Shown here piece by piece: positions 8,714-59,400 of a stretch of DNA of 64,000 nt; the first letter of the stretch is position 1, and every line of letters begins with the position of its first letter. Source of the DNA: a virus. The translations under genes were made by a program, and so were the position numbers. The DNA lies in the IMG/VR virus record IMGVR_UViG_3300032282_005937, positions 1-64,000 of that record; one strand, given 5' to 3'. The notes under the pieces are model-generated. The model saw nothing but the letters and a program-made list of their open reading frames with translations. It had not been told where the DNA came from and searched no databases.

Positions 8714-8735
8714 CTCCTTACTATAAGGTACACCA
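8714..8735 (-). promoter_or_regulatory. GGTGTA leader motif with hairpin around the ribosome binding site
   Basis: On the minus strand this reads TGGTGTA, then CCTTA-TAG-TAAGG, a perfect 5-bp stem whose 3' arm is the TAAGG of the Shine-Dalgarno box for the gene starting at 8708. GGTGTA belongs to a motif seen at six other gene starts in the window. Confidence 0.5.
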
Positions 8736-8751
8736 AAATAAATTTTTAAAA

Positions 8752-9573
8752 TTACCAATCAATATTTTCATAAAAATAATTTGCCGATACACTGTTTATA
8801 CTATAATAAAGACATCTTTTATGAATCCATTCTTTTAACTTAGCTTTATCTTTTTCTAAAATTGCATTTTTTCTTAATTGATCATATTTTTTTTCTTCAA
8901 AAGAATAATTTCTTGCATCTTGATAGTGAAAAGAAAAAACTTTAAAATTTTTAATTTTTATATAAGTGCTTAAAAATCTTTCGTGTATAAACGGAAAAAA
9001 ATTCAAAGAGTTATCTTTGTAATATCCCATTGAAGAATTGTGAATTTCTTTAGTTGCTTCATCTAATTTATCTAATGCATCAAAATATTTTAAAAAAAAA
9101 TCATTGTATCCATCCCAAAATGTTTTATTTGCAACAAAATAACAACAGTAAAACATATCGTCAGTATTCATTGGTTCATATAAATGTTTTAAATCTATTT
9201 TTAATAATGGAAAAATTTTTTCCATAACCTTGATTGTTTTTTGATTAATAGAATAGAAGTTTTCCCATATATTGTACCAACAAGCTGAGGCAGTATAAAA
9301 TGGGTTAAAAAAATATATGTCATAACCTTCATTTTTTTTTATTTTATTTATAATTTCTATGCCATGAATGTTCATTTTTGATTTATAATTAATGCTAAAC
9401 GAACCCCAAAAATCCAATTTTTCTGCAACAGATTTTTCATAGCATATTTTATTTAAATAATATTCTCTTAATTCTGGTTTTAAATTTTTTGTATTGTCTA
9501 TTTTTTCAAATGATTTATCTACAAGATTTTCTTGATCTTTGTTATAAAAACATTGATATATTTTAATGTTCAA
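8752..9573 (-). CDS. probable glycosyltransferase-like protein
   Basis: 273 residues. The order of features (a short N-terminal strand MNIKIYQCFY, a YDIYFFNPFYTASACWYNIWE core, then YFVANKTFWDGY and a C-terminal HERFLSTYI segment) resembles polysaccharide-type transferases that use an N-P-x-Y core and a late His-Glu-Arg. There is no clear DXD motif. It lies upstream of the Dps-like gene on the same strand and diverges from the glycan island starting at 9657. The glycosyltransferase reading is inference from layout and context. Confidence 0.5.
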   Translation of the reverse strand: MNIKIYQCFYNKDQENLVDKSFEKIDNTKNLKPELREYYLNKICYEKSVAEKLDFWGSFSINYKSKMNIHGIEIINKIKKNEGYDIYFFNPFYTASACWYNIWENFYSINQKTIKVMEKIFPLLKIDLKHLYEPMNTDDMFYCCYFVANKTFWDGYNDFFLKYFDALDKLDEATKEIHNSSMGYYKDNSLNFFPFIHERFLSTYIKIKNFKVFSFHYQDARNYSFEEKKYDQLRKNAILEKDKAKLKEWIHKRCLYYSINSVSANYFYENIDW

Positions 9574-9629
9574 ATGAATGCCTTTATATTCAAATGCATA
9601 AAAAATAAATTCATTAGCAGACTACTTTA

Positions 9630-9650
9630 TAGGTGTATTTATATCAAGGG
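9630..9650 (+). promoter_or_regulatory. GGTGTATTTATA leader motif
   Basis: AGGTGTATTTATAT at 9631-9644 leads directly into an AAGGG ribosome binding site (9646-9650) for the gene at 9657. CTTTATA (9625-9631) can pair with TATA..AAG (9640-9648), so the motif can lie in a weak hairpin loop. Confidence 0.45.
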
Positions 9651-9656
9651 TGAAAA

Positions 9657-10238
9657 ATGAAATTAAATATAGTTACAGTTTTATTTAGAAAAAATTTACT
9701 AGAAAAACAAATGGAATCTATTCCTAAAAAAAAAGATATAAATTGGATTATTTGTAAAACTAAAAATTGGGGAGAAATACCAAAATCAATAACTGAAAAT
9801 AAAAATATATATTTAACAATAATTTCTGAAGTTGATTGTGAAGAAAATAGGGAAAATTTTGTAACAAAAATAAATCAAGGTTTATCTTTAGTAGAAGATG
9901 GTTTTTTTTGTATACTAGATGATGATAACATTATACATCCTGACATGTATGAAATTTACAATAATGAAAAACACAATTATGAAATGATTGTTGGAAAACA
10001 AATAAGAAAAAACGGAAAAATTTATTTAGACCCAAATTATCCAAGGCAAGATTTTGTAGATATGGGAAATGTTATTTGCACTACAAGAATTTTAAATAGT
10101 GTAAAATATTTTAATAAAATTGATAAGAACCATACATCATATGATGGACAATTTTGGTCGTTATGTTTTTCAAATCTAGACAAGGAAAGAGTTGCTTTAA
10201 TAAAAAAACCAATGTTTTATTATAATGGATTAAGATAA
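9657..10238 (+). CDS. short GT2-type glycosyltransferase
   Basis: 193 residues. It starts with a GT-A strand (LNIVTVLFRK), has an acidic FCILDDDNIIHPDMY core that holds the DXD, and ends with a YDGQFWSL segment where the catalytic Asp is expected. It is shorter than typical GT2 enzymes (about 250-300) and lacks any membrane segment, so it is probably soluble. It opens the 9.6-14.7 kb glycan island and overlaps the aminotransferase gene by one base. Confidence 0.75.
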   Translation: MKLNIVTVLFRKNLLEKQMESIPKKKDINWIICKTKNWGEIPKSITENKNIYLTIISEVDCEENRENFVTKINQGLSLVEDGFFCILDDDNIIHPDMYEIYNNEKHNYEMIVGKQIRKNGKIYLDPNYPRQDFVDMGNVICTTRILNSVKYFNKIDKNHTSYDGQFWSLCFSNLDKERVALIKKPMFYYNGLR

Positions 10239-10849
10239 TGGCTATAGGTGTTCATAAAATAACAGAAGATTTTGAAAAATTGATATGTGATTATACAAAA
10301 TCGCCCTATTGTGTAGCCACTGATAATTGCAGTAATGCTTTATTTTTGGCACTTTTATACGAAGGAATTAAAGATAAAAAAATAGGCATACCATGTAGAA
10401 CATACCCATCTGTTCCGTGTGAAATAATTCATGCTGGTGGAAAAGTAGAATTTTATGAAGTTGAAGGAAAAATAAAAGGTGAATATCAACTATTGGGCAC
10501 AAAGGTATTTGATAGTGCTTTGAGATTCACATCTAATATGTACAGAAAAGGATTTACTCAGTGCCTTTCTTTTAGTGGTCCTCATAAGCATTTAAAGCTT
10601 GGCAAAGGTGGGATGATATTAACTGACAGCTTAGAAGCTTCCCAGTGGTATAAAAAAGCAAGATTTAGTGGAAGAGGCGAATGCAGTTATCACGATGACA
10701 TATTCACAATGACAGGCTGGAATTTTTATATGCTTCCAGAAATTGCTGCTAAAGGAATTGGTCTTATGGCTGGAATTAAAGAACATAATGAGGATTTAGA
10801 ACTATTATATCCTGATTTAAGTAAATTTGAAATATATAAAGGGGAATAA
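10238..10849 (+). CDS. half-length DegT/DnrJ/EryC1-type PLP aminotransferase
   Basis: 203 residues. It shows the fold type I PLP core of sugar aminotransferases: ATDNCSNALFLALL (cofactor phosphate region), IPCRTYPS, then an Asp in KVFDSALRF. The Schiff-base lysine segment SFSGPHKHLKLGKGG places the lysine at 117. Family members usually have about 370 residues; this one stops soon after the lysine domain, so the C-terminal small domain is largely missing. It could be a minimal enzyme, need a partner, or have lost activity. Family members make amino sugars such as those in O-antigen chains. Confidence 0.75.
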   Translation: MAIGVHKITEDFEKLICDYTKSPYCVATDNCSNALFLALLYEGIKDKKIGIPCRTYPSVPCEIIHAGGKVEFYEVEGKIKGEYQLLGTKVFDSALRFTSNMYRKGFTQCLSFSGPHKHLKLGKGGMILTDSLEASQWYKKARFSGRGECSYHDDIFTMTGWNFYMLPEIAAKGIGLMAGIKEHNEDLELLYPDLSKFEIYKGE

Positions 10850-10850
10850 A

Positions 10851-11411
10851 ATGGAGTATGGAGAAACAATTGTTGTAAAAGAAAAGGTAGATAAATTAAA
10901 AGAATTATTAAAATCTGTAAAAGACCTAGATGGTGATGTAGTAGAAATAGGCGTTTATTTTGGTGGAACAGCATTAGAAATAGCAAAAATAGAAAACAAA
11001 AATACCATTCATATTTTTGATACATTTAATGGGATGCCTAATTTTTCAGAAGAAAAAGATAAAAAATGGGCAATAGGAAGTTTTAAAGGTGCAGATTTTG
11101 AAAAAATAAAAAATTTGTTTTTAAGTTACGACAATGTAAAAATATATGATGGCATATTTCCAAATGAAACATTTGAAAATATAAAAAATATTAAATTAAA
11201 ATTTGTTCATATAGATGTTGATAATTATCAGTCTTATAAAGATTCTTTGTCTGCAATTTATGAAAATGTTGTTGAAAATGGAATCATTGTTTTTGACGAT
11301 TATAATGAATCATGCTGTCCTGGTGCAAATTTAGCAATAAATGAATTTTTTGAAAATAAAGAAAGAATAATTTTTGATAATACATACTATATAATTAAAG
11401 GAAGTTTATAA
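10851..11411 (+). CDS. TylF/MycF-type O-methyltransferase
   Basis: 186 residues, starting at 10851 behind an AAGGGG box. The motifs follow the macrocin O-methyltransferase family: VVEIGVYFGGTALEIA (SAM binding), FVHIDVDNYQSYKDSL (metal-binding Asp pair) and GIIVFDDYNESCCPGA. TylF relatives methylate hydroxyls of deoxysugars with a divalent metal. In this island it likely methylates a sugar being built by the neighbouring transferases. Somewhat shorter than the usual 230-260 residues. Confidence 0.85.
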   Translation: MEYGETIVVKEKVDKLKELLKSVKDLDGDVVEIGVYFGGTALEIAKIENKNTIHIFDTFNGMPNFSEEKDKKWAIGSFKGADFEKIKNLFLSYDNVKIYDGIFPNETFENIKNIKLKFVHIDVDNYQSYKDSLSAIYENVVENGIIVFDDYNESCCPGANLAINEFFENKERIIFDNTYYIIKGSL

Positions 11412-11412
11412 T

Positions 11413-14747: not shown

Positions 14748-15023
14748 ATGAAATATCTTTATGAAATATGGGTACGCATAGAAGAAAAAAATAAAAAAAA
14801 TAAAGCTTCTATAGATAAGAATGGAAGTTGTTGCATTGCATTATGTGCTTCATCAAACAAGGAAGCTCTCCTTCTTTTGCAAGAAGTACTTTTAAGTTGT
14901 GATAATAGGCCGATAGGAAATAAAAAGAAAATAAAGCACTTTAGGTTGAAAGACAGTTGCTCTAAGTATATATTTCTTCTGTGTAAGGAAAATGTCGAAA
15001 GTTATAAAAGAGCATGTGATTAA
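14748..15023 (+). CDS. hypothetical protein
   Basis: 91 residues with Cys pairs (GSCCIALCASS; CSKYIFLLC) and a basic, Lys-rich N-terminal third. No family recognised. It is followed by the gene-free structured stretch at 15029-15320. Confidence 0.55.
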   Translation: MKYLYEIWVRIEEKNKKNKASIDKNGSCCIALCASSNKEALLLLQEVLLSCDNRPIGNKKKIKHFRLKDSCSKYIFLLCKENVESYKRACD

Positions 15024-15028
15024 AAGCA

Positions 15029-15320
15029 ACTGCGTTAACAATTCAAGCATACGGTTCTTCCGCAGTTTTTATACCGAAATGAATCACATCACCAGGGGAT
15101 AACCCCAAGGATTGCCAGAGAGTAGCCAAACTCTCAACAGGGTGGCACGAAATAGTTTAGAAAGATTATTATACTAGAATTTGAGTGACCACTTCTCATA
15201 CTAGACCTGATACTTTACAAGTACCTTCTTTCTAATGTCCTATTTGGTCAAAATTTTATAACAAACTGCTAGTTCTAGGAACTTGCTGGTAGTAGTACTA
15301 TCAGGGAGAAGAAGTGGCCT
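15029..15320 (+). ncRNA. candidate structured non-coding RNA in a 300-base gene-free stretch
   Basis: No coding frame of useful length occurs between 15024 and 15325, and base composition is visibly richer in G+C than around it. Paired elements: AACTGCG (15029-15035) with CGCAGTT (15061-15067) followed by T's; GGGG/CCCC at 15095-15106 with a 4-base loop; GAGAGT/ACTCTC at 15118-15135, enclosed by GCCA/TGGC (15114-15117 with 15143-15146); CCTGATA (15206-15212) with TATCAGG (15299-15305), nested inside GACCACTTCT (15187-15196) with AGAAGTGGCC (15310-15319, one mismatch); and AGTTC/GAACT (15271-15283). The nested long-range helices argue for a real fold. Strand is chosen from the T-run after the first stem and is uncertain. 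It matches no RNA class I know. Confidence 0.5.
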
Positions 15321-18651: not shown

Positions 18652-18684
18652 TTACCCTCATACTGTGTATTAGTATGGGGGTAA
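18652..18684 (+). promoter_or_regulatory. hairpin burying the ribosome binding site of an HNH gene, motif in loop
   Basis: Bases 18652-18664 pair with 18672-18684 in a 13-bp stem with a single T/G wobble and a 7-base loop, GTGTATT. The 3' arm contains the GGGGG box (18677-18681) for the ATG at 18687. The loop and following bases (TGTGTATTAGTAT) resemble the GGTGTATTTATA leader motif. T4 intron endonuclease genes use the same design: an RBS-hiding stem with a late promoter in its loop. There is no T run, so it is a poor terminator. Confidence 0.65.
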
Positions 18685-18686
18685 TT

Positions 18687-19061
18687 ATGAAAAAAAAATC
18701 GCACAACAGTAAGGCTTTTGGTGAAATTTCTGGAAAATATTGGTCTTCTTTAATAAAAAACGCAAAAAAAAGAAGTATAAAAGTAACTGCAACAATAGAA
18801 GAAGCTTGGGAAATATTTTTGAAACAGAATAGAAGATGTTTTTATACTGGTTTAAAAATAACTCATAAAAAGTATTTGAAAAGAATTAATAATAAAGACA
18901 TATATTCTTTAGGAACGGCATCGTTAGACAGAAAAAATAGTAACCTTAGTTACACTAAACAAAACATACAGTGGGTTCATAAAGATGTTAACTATATGAA
19001 AATGAGTTTAAACGAAAAGTATTTTATAAAACTTTGCAAGCTTATATCTAGGAGATTCTAA
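18687..19061 (+). CDS. HNH/endonuclease VII-like phage nuclease
   Basis: 124 residues. It carries RCFYTGLKI, later TASLDRKNSNLSYTKQNIQW and VHKDVNYMKM. This Cys...TASLDR-x-N-S...N-x-QWVH-x-D-x-N pattern is typical of free-standing HNH-type nucleases of phages. The Asp-Arg and the His-Lys-Asp-x-Asn supply the metal and catalytic residues. I chose ATG 18687; an in-frame ATG at 18675 lies in the hairpin stem. It probably acts as a homing nuclease on related phage DNA, and its translation seems controlled by the upstream hairpin. Confidence 0.75.
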   Translation: MKKKSHNSKAFGEISGKYWSSLIKNAKKRSIKVTATIEEAWEIFLKQNRRCFYTGLKITHKKYLKRINNKDIYSLGTASLDRKNSNLSYTKQNIQWVHKDVNYMKMSLNEKYFIKLCKLISRRF

Positions 19062-20282: not shown

Positions 20283-20331
20283 AGGGGTATTTATACATGG
20301 GCTTTATCCTTTTTAAAGGAGGTATCCCATG
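20283..20331 (+). promoter_or_regulatory. leader motif and hairpin enclosing the start of a 57-residue gene
   Basis: AGGGGTATTTATA (20283-20295) matches the GGTGTATTTATA leader motif. Directly after it CATGGG (20296-20301) can pair perfectly with CCCATG (20326-20331), which includes the ATG at 20329. Inside, CCTTT (20308-20312) can pair with the AAAGG of the AAAGGAGG box (20315-20322). A transcript initiated just downstream of the motif would lose the 5' arm, freeing the start. Confidence 0.5.
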
Positions 20332-20502
20332 CAAACTTATTTCGAAGTTTGGGCAACAGAGCCTAATGGCAAAACAAGAATAAAAATAGCAGAGTACGAA
20401 GAAATTTATTGGCAAAGAGCAGAAAAAAAAGCTTTATCATTAGAGTTACAAGGATATACTAAGATAGTTGTTTTTGAAAAAATGAGGACTACAAACAAAT
20501 AA
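20329..20502 (+). CDS. small hypothetical protein
   Basis: 57 residues (MQTYFEVWATEPNG...KIVVFEKMRTTNK) with an excellent AAAGGAGG box six bases before the ATG. The pattern of strand, loop, helix (WQRAEKKALSLELQG) and strand suggests a small alpha/beta domain. It is preceded by its own leader motif and hairpin. Family unknown. Confidence 0.65.
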   Translation: MQTYFEVWATEPNGKTRIKIAEYEEIYWQRAEKKALSLELQGYTKIVVFEKMRTTNK

Positions 20503-21988: not shown

Positions 21989-22297
21989 ATGAAAAACATA
22001 AAAATAATTTTTGATGTAAACTCAAGTGATATTATAACAACATTTGTATTTCCAGAAATAATAGACAAAGAAGAAAAATCTGTTTTATCTGAAAAAACAG
22101 CATCTTTTCTTTCTTCTTTGCAAACTGGAGGTATGATGACATCAATAATACATGGTGTTGTTGAAGGTGGAATTATTTCTGACGATAAGAGTTTATCTGA
22201 TTTAATAATTAAAAAAATGCTTTCTAATTTTTTAGTTACATCAGATGAAAAGCCATTGGTTCTTCCGAGTGAAGCATTTGTTTTTAAGGAAAAATAA
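21989..22297 (+). CDS. hypothetical protein
   Basis: 102 residues, ATG one base after the previous stop; an earlier in-frame codon at 21914 is inside the upstream gene and is not used. It has a beta-rich start (KIIFDVNSSDIITTFVF) and a helical middle. No family recognised. One-base overlap with thyX suggests co-expression. Confidence 0.6.
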   Translation: MKNIKIIFDVNSSDIITTFVFPEIIDKEEKSVLSEKTASFLSSLQTGGMMTSIIHGVVEGGIISDDKSLSDLIIKKMLSNFLVTSDEKPLVLPSEAFVFKEK

Positions 22298-23100
22298 TGA
22301 CAATAGAAGCAAAAATAATTTCAGATTCTGTATCTGTTCATGATAGAAGAATAACTACTATGGTTATTAAATATCCAAGATTCATACATTCTGAGTTTAT
22401 GACACATAGAATTTTTTCTAGAAATGCCAGTAGTAGTCGAGCTATACCAGTTGATAAAATGATTGATGATATTAAAGAGGATATGGCAAAACCAAGCGTT
22501 TGGGCAAAAAACCAAAAGGGAATGTCATCTGGCGAAAAATTAGATCATAACAAAGAAGTCATGTGTAATCATGTTTGGCAAGAAGCAGCAGAGTTTGTTA
22601 TCAAAAAATGTGCATTATTAAAAGAGCTTGGTGTTCATAAAAGTATAGCCAATAGAATATTAGAGCCATTTTCGCACATAACAACAATTGTTACTTCTAC
22701 AGAATGGGATAATTTTTTTAAACTTAGAATAAGTCCTGATGCACAACCAGAGATATGTGAATTGGCTACAAAAATGAAAGCCGTATTAGATGAATCAACT
22801 CCTAAACTTAAAAACTTTGGTGATTGGCATATTCCATTTGGCGATGCTTATGTAGATGATGGTATACCAATAGAAAAAATGCTTAAAATAAGTGTGGCTC
22901 GTTGTGCTAGAGTTAGTTATCTAAATTTTGAAGGTAAAATAGACAATGAAAAAGATTATGATCTTCACGATAGATTAATGAATGAAGGTCATTGGAGTCC
23001 TTTTGAACATTGTGCTACTCCTACATCATCTGACATTTATAGTGGCAACTTCTTAGGGTGGCTACAATATAGAAAATTTGCGGATAGAAAGAATGATTAA
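22297..23100 (+). CDS. thyX: FAD-dependent thymidylate synthase ThyX
   Basis: 267 residues. The ThyX region appears as MTHRIFSRNASSSRAIP (about 35-51), a variant of the RHRxxSxNxxSxRY motif in which the final Tyr is replaced. Further motifs are KISVARCARVSYLNFEG and GHWSPFEHCATP, which lines the dUMP site. ThyX converts dUMP to dTMP with methylenetetrahydrofolate and FADH2. Together with RNR and dNMP kinase it supplies dTTP for an AT-rich genome. It overlaps the next gene by 8 bases. Confidence 0.9.
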   Translation: MTIEAKIISDSVSVHDRRITTMVIKYPRFIHSEFMTHRIFSRNASSSRAIPVDKMIDDIKEDMAKPSVWAKNQKGMSSGEKLDHNKEVMCNHVWQEAAEFVIKKCALLKELGVHKSIANRILEPFSHITTIVTSTEWDNFFKLRISPDAQPEICELATKMKAVLDESTPKLKNFGDWHIPFGDAYVDDGIPIEKMLKISVARCARVSYLNFEGKIDNEKDYDLHDRLMNEGHWSPFEHCATPTSSDIYSGNFLGWLQYRKFADRKND

Positions 23101-23665: not shown

Positions 23666-23670
23666 TATAT

Positions 23671-23682
23671 TGTATTTATTCA
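23671..23682 (+). promoter_or_regulatory. leader motif (TTGTATTTATTC variant)
   Basis: TTGTATTTATTC matches the core of the GGTGTATTTATA motif. AATGA (upstream) can pair with TCATT after the motif, so the motif again lies in a loop. An AAAAGGAG box and the ATG at 23705 follow. Confidence 0.35.
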
Positions 23683-28123: not shown

Positions 28124-28186
28124 TTTTTCTACAAAAAACATTTGATTAAAAGTCACAAAATAGTCTTGCCACAATAAAAAAAATAA

Positions 28187-28309
28187 GTAAGATTTTGATC
28201 TGTCTTACCTACAATTATGGGTGTATTTATTTCCGCTGGTAATCGCCAGTATTACATTCCTTTAGAGTTCCGCTTATCCTTGCGATAGCAGGGCAGATGG
28301 AGTTTTTTC
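28187..28309 (+). promoter_or_regulatory. structured leader of the ribonucleotide reductase gene
   Basis: The 186-base gap before nrdJ holds GTAAGA/TCTTAC (28187-28192 with 28203-28208), the motif GGGTGTATTTATT (28219-28231), CTGG/CCAG (28236-28249), and TATC/GATA with flanking GC pairs (28272-28289). The sequence TTCCGCT occurs twice, at 28231 and 28269. G+C content is above that of the flanks. I do not find the conserved boxes of the cobalamin riboswitch. Confidence 0.45.
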
Positions 28310-30601
28310 ATGTCTATTAAAGAATTGCAAAAATATACGGCTGTTTCCAAATACGCTAGATGGATTAAATCTGAAAAAAGAAGGGAAACTTGGGATGAAA
28401 GCGTACAAAGAATAAAAGATATGATGATAGAAGTTCATCCATCCTTGCGTAAAGATATTGAAGAACATTACGAAATGATTAGGGATCAAAAAATATTGGG
28501 TTCACAAAGAGCATTACAATTTGGCGGTAAGCCGATCATTAAGCATAACGCAAGAATATTTAATTGTTCTGCCAGTTATTGCGACAGATTACGATTTTTC
28601 CAAGAATGTTTTTACTTATTGCTTTGCGGTTCTGGAACTGGATTTAGTGTACAAAAACATCATGTTGAGTTGTTGCCAAAGTTTTCATCCACTAGATTAA
28701 ATCCAGAAACATGTTGTTATGAACATCACATATATAGGGTTGAAGATTCAATTGAGGGTTGGGCAAATGCTCTTGGGGTTCTTCTTTCTTCATATTTTGA
28801 AACTCCAATAAAAGAGTTTGAAAGATACAAAGATATTGCAGTTGGTTTTAGTTATGAAGACATAAGGGAAAAAGGTGCTCCTTTAAGTTGTGGTATAGGC
28901 AATGCTCCAGGTTATCAACCACTAGAAAAAGCCTTAGAAAAAACTAGAGAATTGCTTGATAGATGTATTGCAAATGGGCAGACACAATTAAGAACAATAG
29001 ATGCATTTGATATAGTTATGTTTGCTGCTGATGCTGTTATATCTGGCGGTGTTCGTAGATCTGCAACTATCGCTCTATTTTCTGCTGATGATGAATTAAT
29101 GATCAACGCAAAGACTGGCGATTGGTATTTTACTAATCCTCAAAGGGCTAGGGCAAATATATCTGCGTTACTTCACAGAAAAGACACTCCCAAAGAAGTG
29201 TTTGAAAATCTTTTTAAGGCCACTAAAGAATTTGGTGAACCAGGATTTTTCTTTGCTGATTATTATGACACTCTGTGCAATCCATGTTGTGAGATTTCAT
29301 GGATAACAAAACATTTTTATAAAAAAGATGATCCAAAATTAGCCAAAGCTTTGTCACTATACGAAGGACCAATAACAACAAAAGAGTCATGCAAAGACGA
29401 TATGCCAGAAGATGAAGTTGGTCTTTCTGGTTGGGGATTTTGCAATTTGTCAACAATTAATGGAAAAACAGTTACATCAGAACAAGACTTCTATGAAAGG
29501 TGTGCTGCTGCTGCCTTTATTGGTACATTACAAGCATCTTTTACCAATTTCCCATACTTGGGTCATGTTACAGAACTTATTGCTCGTAAAGAGGCATTAT
29601 TGGGCGTTTCAATCAATGGTATGCAACATCACCCTAAAATACTGTTAAACCCAACAATTCAACAAAATGGGGCTAAAATAGTTAAAGACACAAATAAAAA
29701 ATATGCAGAACTTCTAAACATAAGTCCTGCTGCAAGAACGACTTGCGTAAAACCAGAGGGTAATTCTGCTGCTTTGCTAGGTTCAGCTTCTGGTATTCAT
29801 CCAGATCATTCTAAAAGGTATTTTCGTATTGTGCAAGCTAATCAGATGGAATCTCCATATCAGCACTTTAAAAGCATTAACCCTCAAGCGTGTGAAGAAT
29901 CAGTATGGTCATCAAATAAAACAGATGATTGCATAAGGTTTTGTGTACAAAGTCAAGATGGAACAGTACTTAAGGAAGACATAGATGCTATATCTATGCT
30001 TGATGATGTTTTATCAACCTATAAAAATTGGGTTGTTGCTGGAAAAAATGAACATCTTTGTGTTAGAAAAGAGTTAAACCACAATGTATCTAATACAATA
30101 CATGTAAAAGATAATGAGTGGGATAAGGTAAAAGAGTACATTTATAATCATCGTGCAGAACTTGCTGGAATATCTCTTATAGCTTCAACTGGAGATAAAG
30201 ATTATAACCAAGCTCCATTTACGGCAGTTTATTCAATTGAAGAGCAAATAACCAATTGGGGTTTTGAAGCTACGGCTAAGGCTTATGAAACTTACCCAAA
30301 ATTTTCTGAATATAATTTTAATTCTTTATGGGATGCATGTTCATGTGTTCTTGGCTATTTTGAACCAAAAGACGATAAGCAAAAATCTTGGAAAACTATG
30401 GTGCAAAAATATGCAGATGAGCATTTTTCTTCTGATGTTAAATACGCTACTTATGCACTTAAAGATGCTTATAATTTAGATTTGTGGAACAAATTAATAA
30501 ACAATTATTCTGATGTTAATTATTTAAATGCTTTTGAAAATAGTGCTACAATAAACATTCAAGGAGAACTTGCTTGTGCTGGTGGAGCCTGTTTAATATA
30601 A
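28310..30601 (+). CDS. nrdJ: adenosylcobalamin-dependent (class II) ribonucleotide reductase
   Basis: 763 residues, full length for the monomeric ribonucleoside-triphosphate reductase type. Motifs: IFNCSASYCDRL, LCGSGTGFSV, VISGGVRRSATIALF, NPCCEI (thiyl region), GWGFCNLSTING, KPEGNSAALLGSASGIH, and a redox-active pair at the C-terminus, ACAGGACLI. It reduces NTPs to dNTPs using adenosylcobalamin and does not need oxygen or a second subunit. The host or environment must supply B12. The gene is preceded by a leader motif and structured RNA. Confidence 0.93.
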   Translation: MSIKELQKYTAVSKYARWIKSEKRRETWDESVQRIKDMMIEVHPSLRKDIEEHYEMIRDQKILGSQRALQFGGKPIIKHNARIFNCSASYCDRLRFFQECFYLLLCGSGTGFSVQKHHVELLPKFSSTRLNPETCCYEHHIYRVEDSIEGWANALGVLLSSYFETPIKEFERYKDIAVGFSYEDIREKGAPLSCGIGNAPGYQPLEKALEKTRELLDRCIANGQTQLRTIDAFDIVMFAADAVISGGVRRSATIALFSADDELMINAKTGDWYFTNPQRARANISALLHRKDTPKEVFENLFKATKEFGEPGFFFADYYDTLCNPCCEISWITKHFYKKDDPKLAKALSLYEGPITTKESCKDDMPEDEVGLSGWGFCNLSTINGKTVTSEQDFYERCAAAAFIGTLQASFTNFPYLGHVTELIARKEALLGVSINGMQHHPKILLNPTIQQNGAKIVKDTNKKYAELLNISPAARTTCVKPEGNSAALLGSASGIHPDHSKRYFRIVQANQMESPYQHFKSINPQACEESVWSSNKTDDCIRFCVQSQDGTVLKEDIDAISMLDDVLSTYKNWVVAGKNEHLCVRKELNHNVSNTIHVKDNEWDKVKEYIYNHRAELAGISLIASTGDKDYNQAPFTAVYSIEEQITNWGFEATAKAYETYPKFSEYNFNSLWDACSCVLGYFEPKDDKQKSWKTMVQKYADEHFSSDVKYATYALKDAYNLDLWNKLINNYSDVNYLNAFENSATINIQGELACAGGACLI

Positions 30602-44467: not shown

Positions 44468-45106
44468 ATGTATAGTAATACAATTATGGTTTTTGATTTT
44501 GAAACAGGTTCTTTAGATATAAATAAGTGTGAAGTAATTCAAGTTGCAGCTATGGCAATAAATAGAAAAACTCTTGAACCAATCAAAGATGGTATTTTTG
44601 AAACATTGATAAAGCCAAGAGACTTTAATAATCTTCAAGATGAAGCTCTTGCAATAAATAAGAAAACAAGGGAAGAATTGAAGCTTGCACCAAGTATTGA
44701 TGCTGTTTGGAAAAAGCTTGCAGATTTTATTTCAATGTTTAATAACGGCAAAGGAAATATTTCTGCACCAATTCCAGCAGGAAAAAACATAAGACATTTT
44801 GATATGCCTATTTTCCAAAGAGTTTGCTCAGAACTTGGTTATGTAGATAAGAATGGAAATCAGAATTTATTAAATAGAAGAAGTATGTATGACCTTGATG
44901 AAATAATGATGTTATGGTTTGATAACACTACAGTAGTTCCAAACTATAAGATGGATACACTTAGAGATTTCTTTGGATTATCTAAAGCTAATGCTCATGA
45001 TGCTTTAACTGATGTTATACAGACTTCTGATATTATTTTACATTTTTTAAAATTGCACAGAAGCATTTTTCCAAAAATTAAATTTAAAGATGCATTTAGA
45101 AAGTAA
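44468..45106 (+). CDS. dnaQ: DnaQ-like DEDDh 3'-5' exonuclease
   Basis: 212 residues. Exo I is MVFDFETGSL (Asp, Glu), Exo II is PAGKNIRHFDMPIFQ (Asp) and Exo III is NAHDALTDVIQT (His, Asp), with the His placing it in the DEDDh subclass of PolIII epsilon. It probably proofreads for the alpha subunit encoded around it. Its position between the two dnaE halves supports a physical complex. No domain beyond the exonuclease is seen, and the usual alpha-binding tail of bacterial epsilon is not obvious. Confidence 0.9.
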   Translation: MYSNTIMVFDFETGSLDINKCEVIQVAAMAINRKTLEPIKDGIFETLIKPRDFNNLQDEALAINKKTREELKLAPSIDAVWKKLADFISMFNNGKGNISAPIPAGKNIRHFDMPIFQRVCSELGYVDKNGNQNLLNRRSMYDLDEIMMLWFDNTTVVPNYKMDTLRDFFGLSKANAHDALTDVIQTSDIILHFLKLHRSIFPKIKFKDAFRK

Positions 45107-45108
45107 TT

Positions 45109-46731
45109 ATGAAATATTATAAGTTTGAATGTGGCTGTTCTTGGCCAATAATTGAAGAATCTAAGATAGAAGGTGCTTTACCATTAATGGAAGTTGATCC
45201 ATTAAAATTGCCATACTGCCAGTCAACTTGGGATTTGTTTGCCAGAGGCGATACAAAAGGCGTATTTCAGCTTGAATCAGATCTTGGTAAACAATGGAGC
45301 AAGCGATTAAGGCCAAAAAACGCAGAACATCTATCTGCCATTGGTGCATTAATTAGGCCAGGAACACTTCGTGCATTAGATGAAAACGGCATTAGTATGA
45401 CTGCTCACTATTGCAAAAGAGCCAACTTTGAAGAACCAGTTGAGTCATATCATCCTGTTGTTGATGAAATTTTGAAGTCAACATATGGATCATTGGTTTT
45501 TCAAGAACAAGCTATGGAGTTATCTAAGTCTGTAGCTGGCTTTACTCTGCAAGAAGCTGATAAGCTAAGAAAGGCTATGGGTAAAAAGCTTGCTAGTGAA
45601 ATGGCAAAATGTAAAAAATTGTTTATTGAGGGTGCTAAAAAAGTTGAAGTTGTAAGCGAAAAACAGGCTGAAGAAATATTTAGTTGGATTGAACAAAGTC
45701 AAAGGTATTCGTTCAATAAAAGTCACAGTTGCTGTTATGGTTTAACTGGATATGATACAGCTTATTTGAAAAGCCATTTTCCAGTTCAGTTTTATTGTAG
45801 TTGGTTATATTATGCAAAGGATAAGCTTGATTCTCAACTTGAGATCATGGATCTTGTTGAAGATGCAAGAAAGTTTAACATAGATGTTTTAGCACCAGAT
45901 GCTTTTAAACTAAATAAAAATTTTGCAACCGATGGTTTAAATATATGGTTTGGTATCACTGATATTAAAGGCATTGGTGAATCACAATTCAATAAACTTA
46001 AAGCATCTATGGAAAAGAACAAAGATAAGCTAAATACTTGGGAAAATTTTGTAGTATTTTGTTCTGATGAAATACCAAGTTCTACTATAATAAAACTAAT
46101 ATCTGTTGGTGGATTTAAAAGATATAATACATGTAGACAAAAGCTTTTAGCAGAATATAATTCTTGGGTACAGTTAACAGATAAAGAAAGAGAATGGATC
46201 AAAATTAATTTTACAGAATCTACTATGGCTGAATTAATATCTTCAGCAGCAAAACCAAAAAAGGAAAATGGTGGTTGCTCTAACCAGAACAGAGTATTGT
46301 TTTTGAAAGACTTAGCTAATTTGCTCATTAATCCACCATCTCCACACATTGATCTTCCTCAGTGGCTAATTTGGTCAGAAAAGGATGCTTTAGGCATTTC
46401 TTTGACTTGTAATGCAATTGATTCATGCGATACTGCACAAGCTAATACTACATGCAAAGAATTTTTAAATGGAAAAACTGGTTTTATGATTTTTGGAGTT
46501 GAAATACGAAGGTGCAAAGAAGTTGTAACAAAGGCTGGTAAATCTCCAGGATCTAAAATGGCTTTTATGTCTATATCAGACTCAACTGGAAAAGTGGATG
46601 ATGTAATATGTTTTCCAGACTCGTACAAAGATAGTTCGTCTTTGTTAAAAGAGGGCAACACTGTTTTAATTCATGGTGAAAAAAGCAGGGGCAGTGATTC
46701 TCTTTTGGTTAAAAAAGTTTTTCAAATTTAG
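45109..46731 (+). CDS. dnaE: DNA polymerase III alpha, C-terminal half (fingers, HhH, OB)
   Basis: 540 residues. After a short N-terminal extension with YKFECGCSW come the fingers motifs FARGDTKGVFQLES, IGALIRPGTL, TYGSLVFQEQAMELSKSV and LRKAMGKK, then IEQSQRYSFNKSHSCCYG, which is the region interrupted by split inteins in cyanobacterial DnaE but is intact here. A helix-hairpin-helix region (DIKGIGESQFNKL) and a C-terminal OB-fold (GFMIFGVEIRR; MAFMSISDSTGKVDDVICF) follow. It contains no catalytic Asp and needs the product of 42292. The four-gene order dnaE-N, small ORF, dnaQ, dnaE-C is compact and intact. Confidence 0.92.
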   Translation: MKYYKFECGCSWPIIEESKIEGALPLMEVDPLKLPYCQSTWDLFARGDTKGVFQLESDLGKQWSKRLRPKNAEHLSAIGALIRPGTLRALDENGISMTAHYCKRANFEEPVESYHPVVDEILKSTYGSLVFQEQAMELSKSVAGFTLQEADKLRKAMGKKLASEMAKCKKLFIEGAKKVEVVSEKQAEEIFSWIEQSQRYSFNKSHSCCYGLTGYDTAYLKSHFPVQFYCSWLYYAKDKLDSQLEIMDLVEDARKFNIDVLAPDAFKLNKNFATDGLNIWFGITDIKGIGESQFNKLKASMEKNKDKLNTWENFVVFCSDEIPSSTIIKLISVGGFKRYNTCRQKLLAEYNSWVQLTDKEREWIKINFTESTMAELISSAAKPKKENGGCSNQNRVLFLKDLANLLINPPSPHIDLPQWLIWSEKDALGISLTCNAIDSCDTAQANTTCKEFLNGKTGFMIFGVEIRRCKEVVTKAGKSPGSKMAFMSISDSTGKVDDVICFPDSYKDSSSLLKEGNTVLIHGEKSRGSDSLLVKKVFQI

Positions 46732-46739
46732 GAGCAGAA

Positions 46740-47111
46740 ATGAACATTTGTAGTTTTATGGGTCGTTTAACTAGAGAACCAGAATATGTACAATTACAAA
46801 ATGGAAAAAATGTAATAAATTTTTCTATGGCTGTTAGAAACCCAAATACTGGAAACAAAGATAAAGCAGACACAACATTTATTGATTGTGTAGCTTGGGA
46901 AGGAACTGCTGATTTAATAAATAAGTATTTTAAAAAAGGTTCTAGGATATTAGTTCATACATCTGCAAAAACAGATAACTGGATTGATAAAGATACTGGA
47001 AAAAATAGGTATAAGATTAAATTTCTTGTACAAAAATTTTGGTATGTAGATCAAAAACAAGAAGATGCGTATTCAAGCATTGAAAATGTTGATGAAGAAG
47101 AAGTGATTTAA
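46740..47111 (+). CDS. ssb: single-stranded DNA-binding protein
   Basis: 123 residues with an OB-fold: MNICSFMGRLTREPEYVQLQ, INFSMAVRNP, ADTTFIDCVAWEGTADLI and a KYFKKGSRILVHTSAKTDNW strand. The tail is acidic (SSIENVDEEEVI) but lacks the bacterial DDDIPF-type tip, so interactions may be phage specific. It is the last gene of the replication block. Confidence 0.92.
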   Translation: MNICSFMGRLTREPEYVQLQNGKNVINFSMAVRNPNTGNKDKADTTFIDCVAWEGTADLINKYFKKGSRILVHTSAKTDNWIDKDTGKNRYKIKFLVQKFWYVDQKQEDAYSSIENVDEEEVI

Positions 47112-47112
47112 T

Positions 47113-48612
47113 ATGCAAAAAAGAAAAGTCCTTCTTGTTAGTGAAGCATCTTATCTTAATTCTGGATATGCCAATTATGGTTTTCAGATAATGAAAAGGC
47201 TTTATGACACTAAGGACTTTGATCTTGCTGAAATAAGTTGTCATGGAAGTGATGATAGATCAAATGAAATACCTTGGAAAAGCTATGTAGTTCCAAAAAA
47301 ATCAAACATCTTTGGCGAAGACATATTTAATGATGTTCTAATAGATTTTAAACCAGATATAGTTTGGTCATTTAGAGATCCTTGGGTAGATGAGTTTATT
47401 GGTGATTCAGTATTAAGGAACAACTTTAAATGGGTCTACATGCCAACCGTTGATGCTTTGCCATTAGATATTGACTGGGTTGATACTATAAGCAGAGCAG
47501 ATCATATTTTAACATACTCTGATTGGGCAGCAGAAGAACTTAAAAGTTTGTATCCTAATATAAATGTTCTAGGTTCAGCATCTCCAGGATTTGACACTAA
47601 TTTTAAACCTGTTGAAGATAAAATCAAATTTAAGAAACAACATGGAATAAATGAAGAGTCATTAATTATTGGCTCTGTAATGAGAAATCAAAAAAGAAAA
47701 CTTATTCCAGATCTACTTGATGCATTTTCTGAGTTATTAGATAAAGCACCAAAAGAAATTTCTGAAAAATGTTTTTTGTATCTTCATACAACTTATCCAG
47801 ATGTTGGTTGGAATATACCTAGACTTATTGCAGAAAGACCAAAAATATCAAATAAGGTTCTTTTTTCTTATAACTGCAACAACTGTTTTAAACTTTCAAT
47901 CTCTTCTTTTTGTGGTGCGATTATAGAATGTAATAATTGTAAACAAGTTAATTGTACATTCCCTAGAGTATCAAAAGGCTCAAAAAGAGATGATATGGTT
48001 ATGGTGTATAACCTTATGGATCTATATGTGCAATACTCTTGTGCAGAAGGTTTTGGTATGCCACTAGTTGAAGCAGCATCATGCGGTGTACCAGTTTGTG
48101 CTGTAGACTATAGTGCAATGACTGATATAGTTAAAAAACTAGAAGGTTATCCAATAAAAGTCCAAAGATATACATATGAGGTTGAGACAAATAGAAAGTT
48201 TGCTTTGCCAGACAATTCTAGCTTTAGCGATATTTGTATTGAATTTTTTAAGAAACCATACCCTATAAGAAAAGCAATATCTAAGAAAACAAGAGATTTA
48301 GTTGTTAAAAATTACACATATGAAAAAACATTTGAAAAAATTAAAAATATTTTTTATTCAATAGAACAAGAAAATAAATGGGATTTACCTTTAAAATTTG
48401 CTGAAATGCCAAAAGATTTTAAAGACTGCAATTCTAATAACGACATGATTGAAAAGATTTTTAAAAAAATTCCAATTGATTTGGGTCATATTAAACAAAA
48501 ATGCTTATTTAAATTAAATAATAGGATGCACGATAAACAAAAAGTTTTAAAAGAACTCTCTTCAATATTTGATTCTTATAACCATTATGAGTCTTTAAGG
48601 GTAAAAAAATGA
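47113..48612 (+). CDS. GT4-like glycosyltransferase with Cys-rich insert
   Basis: 499 residues. N-terminal Rossmann half: VLLVSEASYLNSGYANYGFQ and LIDFKPDIVWSFRDPW. C-terminal half: IIGSVMRNQKRKLIPDLLDA, then VQYSCAEGFGMPLVEAASCG and PVCAVDYSAMTDIV, the donor-sugar site of GT4. Between them (about 253-280) lies an insert with FSYNCNNCFKLS and IIECNNCKQVNC, probably a zinc ribbon, which is unusual for this family. It opens the second glycan island and abuts ssb. Confidence 0.85.
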   Translation: MQKRKVLLVSEASYLNSGYANYGFQIMKRLYDTKDFDLAEISCHGSDDRSNEIPWKSYVVPKKSNIFGEDIFNDVLIDFKPDIVWSFRDPWVDEFIGDSVLRNNFKWVYMPTVDALPLDIDWVDTISRADHILTYSDWAAEELKSLYPNINVLGSASPGFDTNFKPVEDKIKFKKQHGINEESLIIGSVMRNQKRKLIPDLLDAFSELLDKAPKEISEKCFLYLHTTYPDVGWNIPRLIAERPKISNKVLFSYNCNNCFKLSISSFCGAIIECNNCKQVNCTFPRVSKGSKRDDMVMVYNLMDLYVQYSCAEGFGMPLVEAASCGVPVCAVDYSAMTDIVKKLEGYPIKVQRYTYEVETNRKFALPDNSSFSDICIEFFKKPYPIRKAISKKTRDLVVKNYTYEKTFEKIKNIFYSIEQENKWDLPLKFAEMPKDFKDCNSNNDMIEKIFKKIPIDLGHIKQKCLFKLNNRMHDKQKVLKELSSIFDSYNHYESLRVKK

Positions 48613-56830: not shown

Positions 56831-57575
56831 ATTTTTGCATAAACATTATGTTGAATTACAACAATCAACTTATGAAATAGCGGAAGTTTCAGAAACTTAT
56901 CCTAACAAAATAAGAAGGGCACTAGTTTCATTTGGTATACCCTTAAGGGATAAGTCAGAAGCTCAAGCAAAGGCTTTAGCCACAGGAAGATGTTTTCATC
57001 CAACTAAAGGTAAAAAATTAACAGAAGAAACCAAGATAAAGATAAGTGACTCTATGGCAAATTCTTGGGAATCAATGGATAAGACTGAAAGAGAAAGAAG
57101 GTCGATTGTTTCTAAGAAAAATTGGGAAGCTATGCCTTTAAGCAAAATTGAAGAAATGCAGAAAAAAGCAGCAGAATCAGTTAGAGAAGCTGCTGAAAAT
57201 GGTTCTAAGCTTGAAAAATTTTTAATTAACGGAATAAGAAAAAGTAAAATTAAAGCAGATTTCCATAAAGAATTCTATGTGATAGGCGAAAGACAACATA
57301 TTGATATTTATATTCCAGAATACAAAGTTGGAATAGAAGTTGATGGCCCAACACACTTTAAGGCTATTTGGGGAACGGAAAAATATGAAAAACAATTGAA
57401 AAGCGATACTAAAAAAACTGGATTGCTATTGAATTCTGGAATGAAGCTGATAAGAATAAAAAACATAAGCGGTAACAGTTCTGGTTTTTATATGAGAACT
57501 ATCTTGAAAAAGCTTCTCGATACGCTAGAATTAATAAAAGAAGGATCATCAGAAGGATTATACGAACTGGAGTAA
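56811..57575 (+). CDS. homing endonuclease: HTH, NUMOD3 and Vsr-like nuclease
   Basis: 254 residues. Residues 18-46 (STYEIAEVSETYPNKIRRAL) form a helix-turn-helix. GKKLTEETKIKISDSM (about 67-82) is a NUMOD3 DNA-binding motif, repeated in weaker form. Residues 135-225 form a Vsr-like nuclease: HIDIYIPEYKVGIEVDGPTH with Asp165, Glu176, Asp178 and His182, then KLIRIKN. This arrangement resembles EDxHD-type phage homing nucleases. It is free-standing, lying between the glycan island and a recombination gene; no intron is visible around it. Confidence 0.8.
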   Translation: MKKLTYEFLHKHYVELQQSTYEIAEVSETYPNKIRRALVSFGIPLRDKSEAQAKALATGRCFHPTKGKKLTEETKIKISDSMANSWESMDKTERERRSIVSKKNWEAMPLSKIEEMQKKAAESVREAAENGSKLEKFLINGIRKSKIKADFHKEFYVIGERQHIDIYIPEYKVGIEVDGPTHFKAIWGTEKYEKQLKSDTKKTGLLLNSGMKLIRIKNISGNSSGFYMRTILKKLLDTLELIKEGSSEGLYELE

Positions 57576-57577
57576 AA

Positions 57578-58270
57578 ATGGTTAAGAAAGTAGCAGAAGA
57601 ATTGCAAGTGGTAGAAGAAAAAATTAACAGCAACAGCCCCGAATGGAACGAACATGTTCTTTCACATTTTCAGCAAGATGAGCTAGTTGATGGAAACCCA
57701 ACTGTAGATGGATTAAGGCGAGTTGCTGAACTTTTAATTGGGCCAATCACCTCTGGAAAAGCAAGTGTTGTTCAATCACCCAATCCAGATAATGATGGGC
57801 GATGTGTAGTGTCATACACTGTTATAGTTAAATCCTTAAATGGATCTGACTTAATATTTGAGCAAACAAGCCTAGCAGATTGTTATGCTGGAAATTGTGA
57901 TCCAAGGTTTGCAGTATTTGCATCAGCAGTTGCAGAAACTAGAGCCGAAGGAAGAGCATTAAGAAAATTACTTAGACTACGGAAAATAATTGCAGCGGAA
58001 GAAGCTGGCCTTGTTCCAGCCGAAGAAAATGGGTCTAACGGAAAAATAACAGCCACTCAAATGAGTTTTATCGAAACTCTGTGTAATAGGAACGATATAA
58101 ATGTTCCTGTTTATTTGGGTGACTCAAAAAGCTTCAGCTTTAGCGGTAGGTTGGAGGAAGTTCCTTATAGGTCAGCAGTGGCTATCATAGCCCATCTATC
58201 TGAGCTTCAGCGTAATAATGCATCGATTAACCCTAAGTATAAGGGTTATAACCCCAATTGGAGGAAGTAA
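57578..58270 (+). CDS. conserved phage protein, possible single-strand annealing protein
   Basis: 230 residues. The block NPTVDGLRRVAELLIGPI, CVVSYTVIV, TSLADCYAGNCDPRFAVFAS and AVAETRAEGRALRKLLRLRK recurs in large phages. The A-E-T-R-A-E-G-R-A-L-R-K helix resembles that in Rad52/ERF-type annealing proteins (A-x-T-x-A-x-x-R-A-L), but I cannot confirm that family. The C-terminal 70 residues form a second small helical domain. It overlaps the zinc-ribbon gene below, which in other phages accompanies such proteins. Confidence 0.65.
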   Translation: MVKKVAEELQVVEEKINSNSPEWNEHVLSHFQQDELVDGNPTVDGLRRVAELLIGPITSGKASVVQSPNPDNDGRCVVSYTVIVKSLNGSDLIFEQTSLADCYAGNCDPRFAVFASAVAETRAEGRALRKLLRLRKIIAAEEAGLVPAEENGSNGKITATQMSFIETLCNRNDINVPVYLGDSKSFSFSGRLEEVPYRSAVAIIAHLSELQRNNASINPKYKGYNPNWRK

Positions 58271-58644
58271 TGAAAGCTATTGTACCTTTTAGTATTTGCA
58301 CTGTAGAAATTGAATGCGAGTCTGTAAAAGATCTTTTTAGAGAAATCGCAACTCTTGCTGAAGTACTCAACGAGGAAAAGTGTGGTGTCTGTGGTGGAGA
58401 AGATGTTGTACCTAAGACAAGAAATGTAGAAAAAAATAAAAAGGTCTACGAATATTTTGAGATGAGTTGTTCTAATCCAAAATGTAGGGCAAGGTTAAAC
58501 TTTGGTCAAAAGCAAGACGGTTCTGGAATTTTTCCAGTTCGTAAGCTTGATGCCAATGGCAAGCCAGACCGTGAAAATGGGTCATACGGCTCGCATAATG
58601 GTTGGTCTAAGTACAAGGGCGGTAATGTAGATGAAGTGCCTTAA
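58270..58644 (+). CDS. zinc-ribbon protein paired with the annealing-type protein
   Basis: 124 residues; ATG overlaps the previous stop (TAATG). Cys pairs CGVCGG and CSNPKC (about 38-41 and 67-72) form a zinc ribbon around an EYFEMSC strand, and RARLNFGQKQDGSGIFPVRK follows. The pattern suggests ssDNA or ssRNA binding. Overlap with the preceding gene supports joint function. Confidence 0.65.
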   Translation: MKAIVPFSICTVEIECESVKDLFREIATLAEVLNEEKCGVCGGEDVVPKTRNVEKNKKVYEYFEMSCSNPKCRARLNFGQKQDGSGIFPVRKLDANGKPDRENGSYGSHNGWSKYKGGNVDEVP

Positions 58645-58798
58645 TATCGAATCTATGACAATAGATGATATAAAAGAAGAACTCCTTTGGCTGAAGGGCT
58701 TTGATGCCGATTGGTCAAAGGAGCTTTATAATTTGCTTAAAAAAGAACTATCCGTTAGAGATATTCAAGCTCAATCCAAAGAGCGTACTGAGTCTTAG
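58631..58798 (+). CDS. small hypothetical protein
   Basis: 55 residues (MKCLNIESMTIDDIKEELLW...), helical and acidic. It starts inside the end of the zinc-ribbon gene and its last 44 bases overlap the convergent virion-protein gene. Similar small Trp-containing helical proteins are common in phages, but it has no assignment. Confidence 0.45.
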   Translation: MKCLNIESMTIDDIKEELLWLKGFDADWSKELYNLLKKELSVRDIQAQSKERTES

Positions 58799-59366
58799 AC
58801 CCAATCGTATCTGGACTAGCAGAAAGTGCCAAGTACCAATCATGTCTGCTATCAATAGTGTCAGAACCACTTGGGCTTAATCCTGATGTACCAGGAGAAT
58901 CTGCAAGAGTCATATAACCAGTTCCTGCTGGTGTTGACCAAGTATTGCTTCCAGATCCAATCAAACTTTCATTTGAAGCTGGATGAATTAGTTCTGCAAC
59001 TTTGGTAGTAACACCACTTGCTTCATTAGATATGCTTGACCTATCATAAATTCTAAGTTTTGTATTCTGAGTTTTTACCCCAGTAGAATGGGTAAATCTA
59101 ACATTTAAAGTAGCAAGACCATTTGCTATTGTTCGTAAGTGCCTTGCAGCACTACCGTTAGGGTATCCAGATGCGGTATTGTAATATTTTACATTTTTGG
59201 CTTTACCGCCATTTGTTGCACCTTGACTATCAGTTATATATGTATCATCTTGGTATTGCCCAACGGCAACAGATGATCCAAAACCACTAGATCCATAAAA
59301 GCCTATACCGCTAGATACAATGTTTTCAAAAGAAGCATCGCCAGCATAAAAGCTAATTGTAGCCAT
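58755..59366 (-). CDS. probable virion structural protein
   Basis: 203 residues, rich in Gly, Ser and Thr. ATISFYAGDASFENIVSSGI with GFYGSSGFGSSVAVGQYQDD and TYITDSQGATNGG resembles structural proteins of marine and freshwater myoviruses. The body is beta-rich and ends LSASPDTIGSKTQYALWIEL, a typical virion-protein C-terminus. No signal peptide. Likely a decoration, neck or tail component. GC content is higher than in the early genes, and the leader motif precedes it. Confidence 0.7.
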   Translation of the reverse strand: MATISFYAGDASFENIVSSGIGFYGSSGFGSSVAVGQYQDDTYITDSQGATNGGKAKNVKYYNTASGYPNGSAARHLRTIANGLATLNVRFTHSTGVKTQNTKLRIYDRSSISNEASGVTTKVAELIHPASNESLIGSGSNTWSTPAGTGYMTLADSPGTSGLSPSGSDTIDSRHDWYLALSASPDTIGSKTQYALWIELEYL

Positions 59367-59374
59367 ATTTTTTC

Positions 59375-59400
59375 TCCTATGTACATAATATTATACACCA
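59375..59400 (-). promoter_or_regulatory. leader motif and ribosome binding site of the virion gene
   Basis: Minus strand: TGGTGTATAATATTATG (59384-59400), then TAGGAG, then ATG at 59366. TGGTGTA matches the GGTGTATTTATA motif, and TATAAT within it is also a perfect -10 box. TGTA and TACA around it can pair. Confidence 0.5.

Follow-up and report, generated by a model that had tools for sequence, protein, structure and literature searches.

The sequence GGTGTATTTA is probably (probability about 0.8) the entire recognition element of a class of late or delayed promoters in a group of uncultivated phages, and the phage-encoded sigma factor sigma-A is its most likely reader. A literature search on the motif found nothing relevant. 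Below, the window denotes the whole stretch of viral DNA that was analyzed, 64,000 nucleotides in length.

Definition, enrichment, and orientation of the motif

The motif is real. Its core is GGTGTAWWW, reduced to GTGTAWWW in the wider family. When k-mers were counted without bias in 239 nonredundant leaders from the window and 19 relatives, GGTGTAT was recovered in 22 leaders, against 1.06 expected; these genomes are kin of one another and incomplete, and the genes were called with a simple purpose-written caller. A comparison with control hexamers also favored the motif. In intergenic DNA, GGTGTA[AT]5 was found 57 times pointing toward a gene and 0 times pointing away from one, and 30 of 56 nonredundant copies of GGTGTAWWW lay at most 100 nt from a start codon, whereas the reverse complement did so in 5 of 57 cases. 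Many copies of GGTGTAWWW are also present within genes. The first-pass annotation had proposed comparing the frequency of the motif in leaders with that in coding DNA and on the opposite strand, and the outcome of that comparison favored the motif. The box was conserved at orthologous leaders across lineages, and it was retained even where the DNA on its left side was unrelated.

Within the window, sense-oriented leaders make up 1.3% of the strand positions. All three occurrences of GG[T/G]GTATTTA fell within them (binomial p of 2e-6, for a pattern picked post hoc), as did 5 of 13 occurrences of GG[T/G]GTAWWW (p of 5e-7), one of the five, at 18678, being part of the hairpin and ribosome-binding site of the HNH gene and not the motif. 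The loose 12-mer with three mismatches allowed gave 160 matches, with 112 expected, and was uninformative. Of the 12-mer originally described, the core GGTGTA with its A/T run stood, and the 12-mer as a unit did not.

Sites in the window

Seven gene starts had been listed as carrying the motif, and it was confirmed at all except the two marked as rejected in Table 1. The box at 9632 recurs as GGTGTATTTTATAT ahead of the orthologous gene in a relative whose upstream DNA is unrelated. At 20284, GGGGTATTTA was kept in the record itself and in 16/16 relatives in which the leader was found by BLAST, with no variation across 12 distinct aligned leaders. Ahead of nrdJ, GGGTGTATTTAT was unchanged in 11/11 representative leaders; one further nrdJ leader, at locus L019, is unrelated in sequence. 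For the site at 59399, GGTGTA was retained in six relatives, the rest of the upstream DNA being unrelated, and the degenerate site at 8734 appears as GGTGTATAT at the same leader in three relatives.

The two remaining sites were rejected. That at 18665 (TGTGTATTAGTA) lacks the GG core and forms the loop of a hairpin with 10 perfect base pairs, which was retained in 12 distinct leaders, and at 23671 one relative has ATTATATTTATC.

Table 1. Motif sites, rejected sites, and leader structures in the window
Positions	Strand	Feature	Context
8734-8722	-	Degenerate motif GGTGTACCTTATA	26 nt before Dps-like gene 8708-8271 (DUF5856)
9632-9643	+	Motif GGTGTATTTATA, exact match	25 nt before glycosyltransferase-like gene 9657-10238
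18655-18681	+	Rejected: hairpin CCCTCATACT-GTGTATT-AGTATGGGGG	Overlaps ribosome-binding site of HNH-type gene 18687-19061
20284-20295	+	Motif GGGGTATTTATA, one mismatch	45 nt before small gene 20329-20502
20296-20331	+	Hairpin CATGGG...CCCATG	Encloses ribosome-binding site and start codon; begins at predicted RNA start
23669-23680	+	Rejected: ATTGTATTTATT, three mismatches	Unconserved
28220-28231	+	Motif GGTGTATTTATT, one mismatch	90 nt before nrdJ (28310-30601)
28232-28309	+	nrdJ leader past the box	Strongly conserved; hairpin GCTGGTAATCGCCAGY at 28235-28250
59399-59388	-	Motif GGTGTATAATAT	33 nt before virion-strand gene 59366-58755

Promoter architecture

Across 29 nonredundant sites, information content was confined to GG[T/G]GTA and the A/T run, and no -35 signal was present. 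The GG was invariant in the clade, position 3 was either T or G, and the common continuation of the box was TTTA, not TATAAT. Positions 6 to 14 were 90% A+T. Purines peaked at +15 from the first G, with one present there in 26/29 sites; these purines are partly due to ribosome-binding sites, and among the 14 sites whose leader measures at least 40 nt the p value was 0.03. From this arrangement we infer a promoter in which the box would act by itself as a -10-type element, with no partner at -35; the A/T-rich DNA that follows would melt, and RNA would start about 15 nt past the first G. The earlier suggestion of a late promoter analogous to the T4 TATAAATA is well supported by the enrichment, the orientation, the single box, and the partition between early and late strands.

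Early and late strands and the genes served

In the longest relative, the virion strand carries GGTGTAWWW 11 times in sense and 0 times in antisense orientation, and the early strand has 0 copies of GGTGTAWWW and 30 of CGAATA. The genes behind the motif include a tail fiber gene and other virion-strand genes. The motif also stands ahead of the non-virion genes nrdJ, the Dps-like gene, the glycosyltransferase gene, and the gene at 20329, so that late timing is probable rather than proven.

The box extends to phages whose sigma-A is 28 to 57% identical, where GTGTAWWW precedes the gene after portal in 9/10 leaders, counting cases in which that gene heads its operon. The leaders of the portal gene itself provide weaker evidence: in this clade, GGTGTAATAA overlaps the end of the gene upstream, which occupies the terminase position, and GTGTAT in L195 appears to code for the end of that gene. 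Ahead of the sigma-A operon, GGTGTA in L156 and L158 was set aside as a probable coincidence, because TATAAT lies behind it and the other lineages lack the box.

Across lineages, the late box co-occurs with sigma-A, and CGAATA with sigma-B. The predicted early promoter system in one set of lineages combines CGAATA and sigma-B, and in the other set, where sigma-B was undetected, it consists of TTGACA/TATAAT.

Sigma-A as the candidate reader

The sigma-A gene heads the late operon and lies outside the window, which is why it was invisible to the first-pass annotation. The protein is small, with a match to Pfam Sigma70_r2 above the cut-off and no match to Sigma70_r4; the alignment of its C terminus with a region 4 is weak and includes a deletion of 10 residues. 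The predicted structure (mean pLDDT 70) serves as support only, and in a Foldseek search its nearest solved structures were sigma factors, namely, ECF region 2 domains (best E value, 0.006). No cultured or cellular relative of sigma-A was found in the phage records or bacterial genomes searched, and relatives of the virion and sigma genes of the group were undetected in the reference phage records searched.

Judging by co-occurrence, sigma-A probably reads the box. The host RNA polymerase core would be joined by sigma-A, whose region 2 would recognize the box and whose C terminus may be a region 4 minus its helix-turn-helix; such a region 4 would explain the missing -35 element. The chances seem about even that sigma-A represents a separate minimal class of phage sigma factors, made up of region 2 and a region 4 remnant devoid of the helix-turn-helix, that reads GTGTAWWW by region 2 alone and has kept this specificity while the early promoter system was exchanged. 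Because the two motifs and the two sigma factors separate across lineages, an exchange of early regulators with the late one kept is testable with purified proteins while the phage itself is uncultured. If the promoter reading is true, this uncultivated freshwater phage group would gain its first transcription map, covering promoter classes for early and late genes as well as candidate sigma factors, and would add a further independent case of late genes served by a -10-only box and a region-4-less sigma factor. Reading by sigma-A would in addition make this a late regulon derived wholly from phages that are uncultivated and lack cultured relatives.

Alternative explanations

The link between sigma-A and the box rests on co-occurrence, and the group encodes more sigma-like genes, namely, sigma-B and, in G009 and G019, a third. 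A promoter read by sigma-B, a host sigma factor, or another phage regulator is nevertheless rather unlikely: sigma-B is 28 to 44% identical within the clade, where the box is unchanged, and was undetected in distant phages retaining GTGTAWWW; the early strand, on which promoters read by the host are expected, does not carry the box; and a multisubunit RNA polymerase beta' domain was not found in five relatives. A search for single-subunit RNA polymerases gave no match, but its controls also failed to match, so it says little. An ordinary host sigma-70 promoter of the extended -10 type is very improbable, even though TGTATAAT is similar to an extended -10 and the 59399 site overlaps TTGAAA-18-TATAAT. 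Comparison among relatives ruled out a sigma-70 promoter at 59399, as TTGAAA and TATAAT vary there while GGTGTA is constant. A -35 hexamer 16 to 18 nt before a -10 hexamer was not found for the class, this single candidate being unconserved; furthermore, the change of T to G at position 3 removes the TG that an extended -10 contains, and both the invariant GG and the usual TTTA continuation argue against it. Least credible of all is chance in an A/T-rich genome or selection bias in the original list. The 12-mer with three mismatches is indeed common and 2/7 listed sites are not instances, but the k-mer count, with its strand bias and controls, was independent of that list, and orthologous leaders conserve the motif across lineages.

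The first-pass annotation had also raised the possibility of an RNA element, which would make the motif a processing site, a translational enhancer, or a ligand-binding leader and not a promoter. Every site is sense-oriented within a leader. In the nrdJ leader, conservation extends beyond 100 nt, with a mean column identity of 87% in the alignment, and GGGTGTA there could pair with downstream TACATACC. A covarying hairpin is present in the leader of 20329, where the RNAalifold consensus, drawn from only five sequences, contains three pairs in which both bases were substituted, among them a replacement of G-C by A-U. Against this, a common structure is absent, the structures of these two leaders are unlike each other, and both hairpins begin past the box, near the expected RNA start. 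Spacing to the ribosome-binding site is unfixed; the distance to the ATG, correctly described as variable, measured 15 to 91 nt, and the two sites with a start codon 15 nt from the first G leave no space for a leader. A known riboswitch at nrdJ was ruled out, the Rfam search of that leader giving no match to a known RNA family or riboswitch and the leader having only two covarying pairs, with a slightly unfavorable covariation term. An RNA element therefore seems a poor explanation for the motif as a class, and what stands is conserved structure just downstream of it in the nrdJ and 20329 leaders.

Comparison with known systems

ECF sigma factors contain regions 2 and 4 and recognize bipartite promoters. 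Sigma-A resembles them in region 2, by Pfam match and nearest structures, but has no detectable region 4.

The T4 late promoter (TATAAATA), read by gp55, a small sigma factor of the domain-2 type, consists of a short box in the -10 position followed by A/T-rich DNA and lacks -35 conservation (PMC2988020). The missing -35 and the A/T stretch are shared by the promoters here, and the -10 position of the box and its reading by a small sigma factor of that type are predicted likenesses, whereas the box here has an invariant GG..G. An hhalign comparison of sigma-A with gp55 gave an E value of 0.62, which does not indicate homology. Although TATAAATA occurs in the reverse complement of the motif, a T4 late box on the opposite strand was rejected because 18 TATAAATA sites are scattered over both strands and the box varies in its A/T half.

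Late promoters of phage 7-11 are bipartite (GTAAtg-16-aCTA), and the sigma factor of this phage, gp47, possesses region 4 (PMC8948821). Here, too, a phage-encoded sigma factor would drive late genes via a phage-specific promoter class, although with a single box and region 4 undetected.

The middle/late promoter element of phiEco32 is tAATGTAtA without a -35, and its sigma factor gp36 lacks region 4 and uses a single-element promoter, with starts 6 to 8 bp downstream (PMC8948821). The same combination of a single element, no -35, and a region-4-less phage sigma factor is predicted here from sequence, the start site being the putative one given above. The elements differ, TAATGTATA in phiEco32 and GGTGTATTTA here, and the phages are otherwise unrelated at the sequence level; hhalign of sigma-A with gp36 covered only 16 columns of region 2 and was not significant (E value, 0.12). 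In both groups, the early genes lie on the strand opposite the late cluster. A Dps-family operon is among the genes near the phiEco32 middle/late promoters (PMC8948821), and a Dps-like gene stands behind the box here.

Conservation of the box between relatives

The first-pass annotation had placed one leader motif at seven gene starts. Leader comparison between relatives bore out five of these sites and did not bear out 18665 and 23671. The strongest pattern was that GGTGTA was retained although the DNA to its left was unrelated between relatives, as observed in seven genomes at the virion-strand gene 59366, in four distinct leaders at the Dps-like gene 8708, and in two leaders at gene 9657 (genes are named by their start in the window). 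The box of the nrdJ leader sits within a longer conserved block, upstream of which the DNA is unrelated in one related locus (L014); one further locus, L019, has an unrelated nrdJ leader. For gene 20329, GGGGTATTTA was present in 12/12 distinct aligned leaders.

Site 18665 was rejected as a box: it forms the loop between the perfectly pairing arms of the hairpin CCCTCATACT-GTGTATT-AGTATGGGGG, which 12 distinct leaders retain. The 3' arm of this hairpin shares sequence with the ribosome-binding site of an HNH-type gene, and translational control of that gene is possible. Site 23671, a weak match that is altered in contig G004, was also rejected. The conserved block upstream of the nrdJ box (AAAAAATAAGTAAGA...), with TTG ~16 to 17 nt ahead of TAAGAW in most relatives, may hold a second, earlier promoter for nrdJ.

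The IMG/VR virus record holding the window is 70,880 bases long, the window being its bases 1-64000 (G+C ~30%), with genes for nrdJ, DnaB, a DnaE-like polymerase, ThyX, and many glycosyltransferases. Phage records gave no near match to its first 25 kb. With the window nrdJ protein as the query, 34 related loci were found in uncultivated virus contigs, and the comparison set comprised 19 related contigs, all fragments, retrieved piecewise.

Enrichment and anatomy

For an unbiased test, all called leaders of 20 genomes were merged where near-identical to give 239, and every 6- and 7-mer was counted; genes were called with a simple caller written for this analysis. Besides ribosome-binding words, two stood out, ACGAATA, seen 35 times against 2.4 expected (1 antisense), and GGTGTAT, seen 22 times against 1.06 expected (6 antisense), with the caveat that even after merging the counts are not fully independent because the genomes are related. 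The earlier claim that the motif lies upstream of genes and faces them held up: GGTGTA[AT]5 in intergenic DNA faced the gene 57 times and faced away 0 times, with 33 occurrences in coding DNA, which was ~12 times as much sequence. Nonredundant GGTGTAWWW lay within 100 nt of a start codon in 30/56 cases, compared with 5/57 for its reverse complement and 0 to 21% for other permuted or similar hexamers.

Across 29 nonredundant box sites, information was found only in GG[T/G]GTA and the A/T run behind it, with no conservation at the -35 distance. Counted from the first G, positions +6 to +14 were 90% A+T, versus 72 to 74% elsewhere, and +15 was a purine at 26/29 sites, usually with T just before it. 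This fits a -10-type element with an RNA start that would lie near +15. Ribosome-binding purines add to the +15 peak; restricted to the 14 sites whose leaders span at least 40 nt, the peak had a P of 0.03. Two sites have their start codon exactly at +15, and a message from them would be leaderless. The 20329 hairpin, which encloses the ribosome-binding site and shows a compensatory change, starts at about +15, as does the nrdJ leader hairpin GCTGG...CCAGY.

Two leader classes and two sigma factors

The longest close relative is G008. Its minus-strand small-gene cluster contained 30 CGAATA and 0 GGTGTAWWW, and its virion strand carried 11 sense and 0 antisense GGTGTAWWW. Among the G008 genes behind the box are one for a collagen-like tail fibre protein, a small gene positioned between those of the portal and major head protein, and other virion-strand genes. 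Off the virion strand the box also precedes nrdJ, 20329, and the Dps-like gene, which makes "late or delayed" the more cautious label. ACGAATA, which in many cases has a TGAATAA/TAAATAA-like stretch ~20 nt upstream, probably marks an early promoter class, and it co-occurs with sigma-B, a phage sigma factor whose gene, like that of sigma-A, is located outside the window's own record.

Sigma-70 region 2 was present in those relatives whose contigs extend into the part of the genome concerned. Sigma-A (195 to 197 aa; mean column identity 83% over 15 sequences), whose gene heads the late operon, matched region 2 above the Pfam cutoff and gave no Pfam region-4 match. Its C-terminus aligned weakly to region 4 of a different phage sigma factor and lacked 10 residues at what would be the position of the helix-turn-helix. 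Inspection by eye showed boxes of the sigma-70 type in the leader of the sigma-A operon in several lineages. The sigma-B gene belongs to the early cluster, and in G008 and G012 a CGAATA leader precedes it; the protein shows weak region-4 similarity and diverges down to 28 to 44% identity.

Searching with the sigma-A alignment yielded 41 further loci at 28 to 57% identity. There, the gene after the portal (~460 to 510 aa where complete) had GTGTAWWW in 9/10 nonredundant leaders where it heads an operon, and GGTGTAGTA in the tenth. Box and ATG were ~24 to 30 nt apart (45 in locus L193), and control words occurred in 0 to 2 of 13 leaders. Portal leaders had GTGTAWWW in 8/18, with fragments and wrongly called starts among those counted. 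Leaders with TTGACA/TATAAT were present in the most distant lineages, where neither sigma-B nor dense CGAATA was detected, although two larger records carry another region-4 protein and one a second region-2 protein. The late box thus goes with sigma-A, and CGAATA with sigma-B. We infer promoter function, start site, timing, and assignment to sigma-A for the box.

Comparison with known phage systems

The box system appears to work like two known ones. The phiEco32 gp36 protein, with no region-4 homology, reads a single element, tAATGTAtA, and RNA starts 6 to 8 bp downstream of it (PMC8948821). T4 late promoters have a box of 8 bp in the -10 position, an unconserved -35, and an A/T-rich stretch behind, and are read by gp55, a domain-2-type sigma (PMC2988020). 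Because sigma-A gave no significant alignment to gp36 or gp55 and TATAAATA had no strand or leader preference, the likeness does not show membership by descent. A search of 50,697 phage records gave no relatives of sigma-A or the portal, and the bacterial genomes searched likewise contained no sigma-A relative.

Other features

Features by coordinate (G and L numbers, related uncultivated virus contigs or loci)
Feature	Record	Position	Strand	Remarks
DUF1501 protein gene	window	53-532
DUF1501 protein gene	G008	133488-134738
ACGAATA leader motif	window	1508 and 6959	+	also in early cluster of G008, G012, G004, others
Conserved block	window	14967-15212	+ (as aligned)	246 nt, mostly noncoding
Hairpin before HNH-type gene	window	18655-18681
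Block upstream of nrdJ box	window	28178-28219
Third sigma-like gene	G009	22011-22532		regions 2 and 4; also in G019; none at that place in the window
Stig1-matching protein gene	G008 (L067)	44866-48474	virion strand	1202 aa

The 246-nt block was ~75% conserved across the clade in variable surroundings, and its consensus fold had 52 pairs, 11 of them changed on both sides. It had no Rfam match and is a candidate new structured phage RNA. The ten matches of the L067 protein to the plant Stig1 family are probably compositional, from cysteine-rich repeats. The DUF1501 family is characteristic of Planctomycetes and their relatives, and its genes may offer a lead to the host of the phage.
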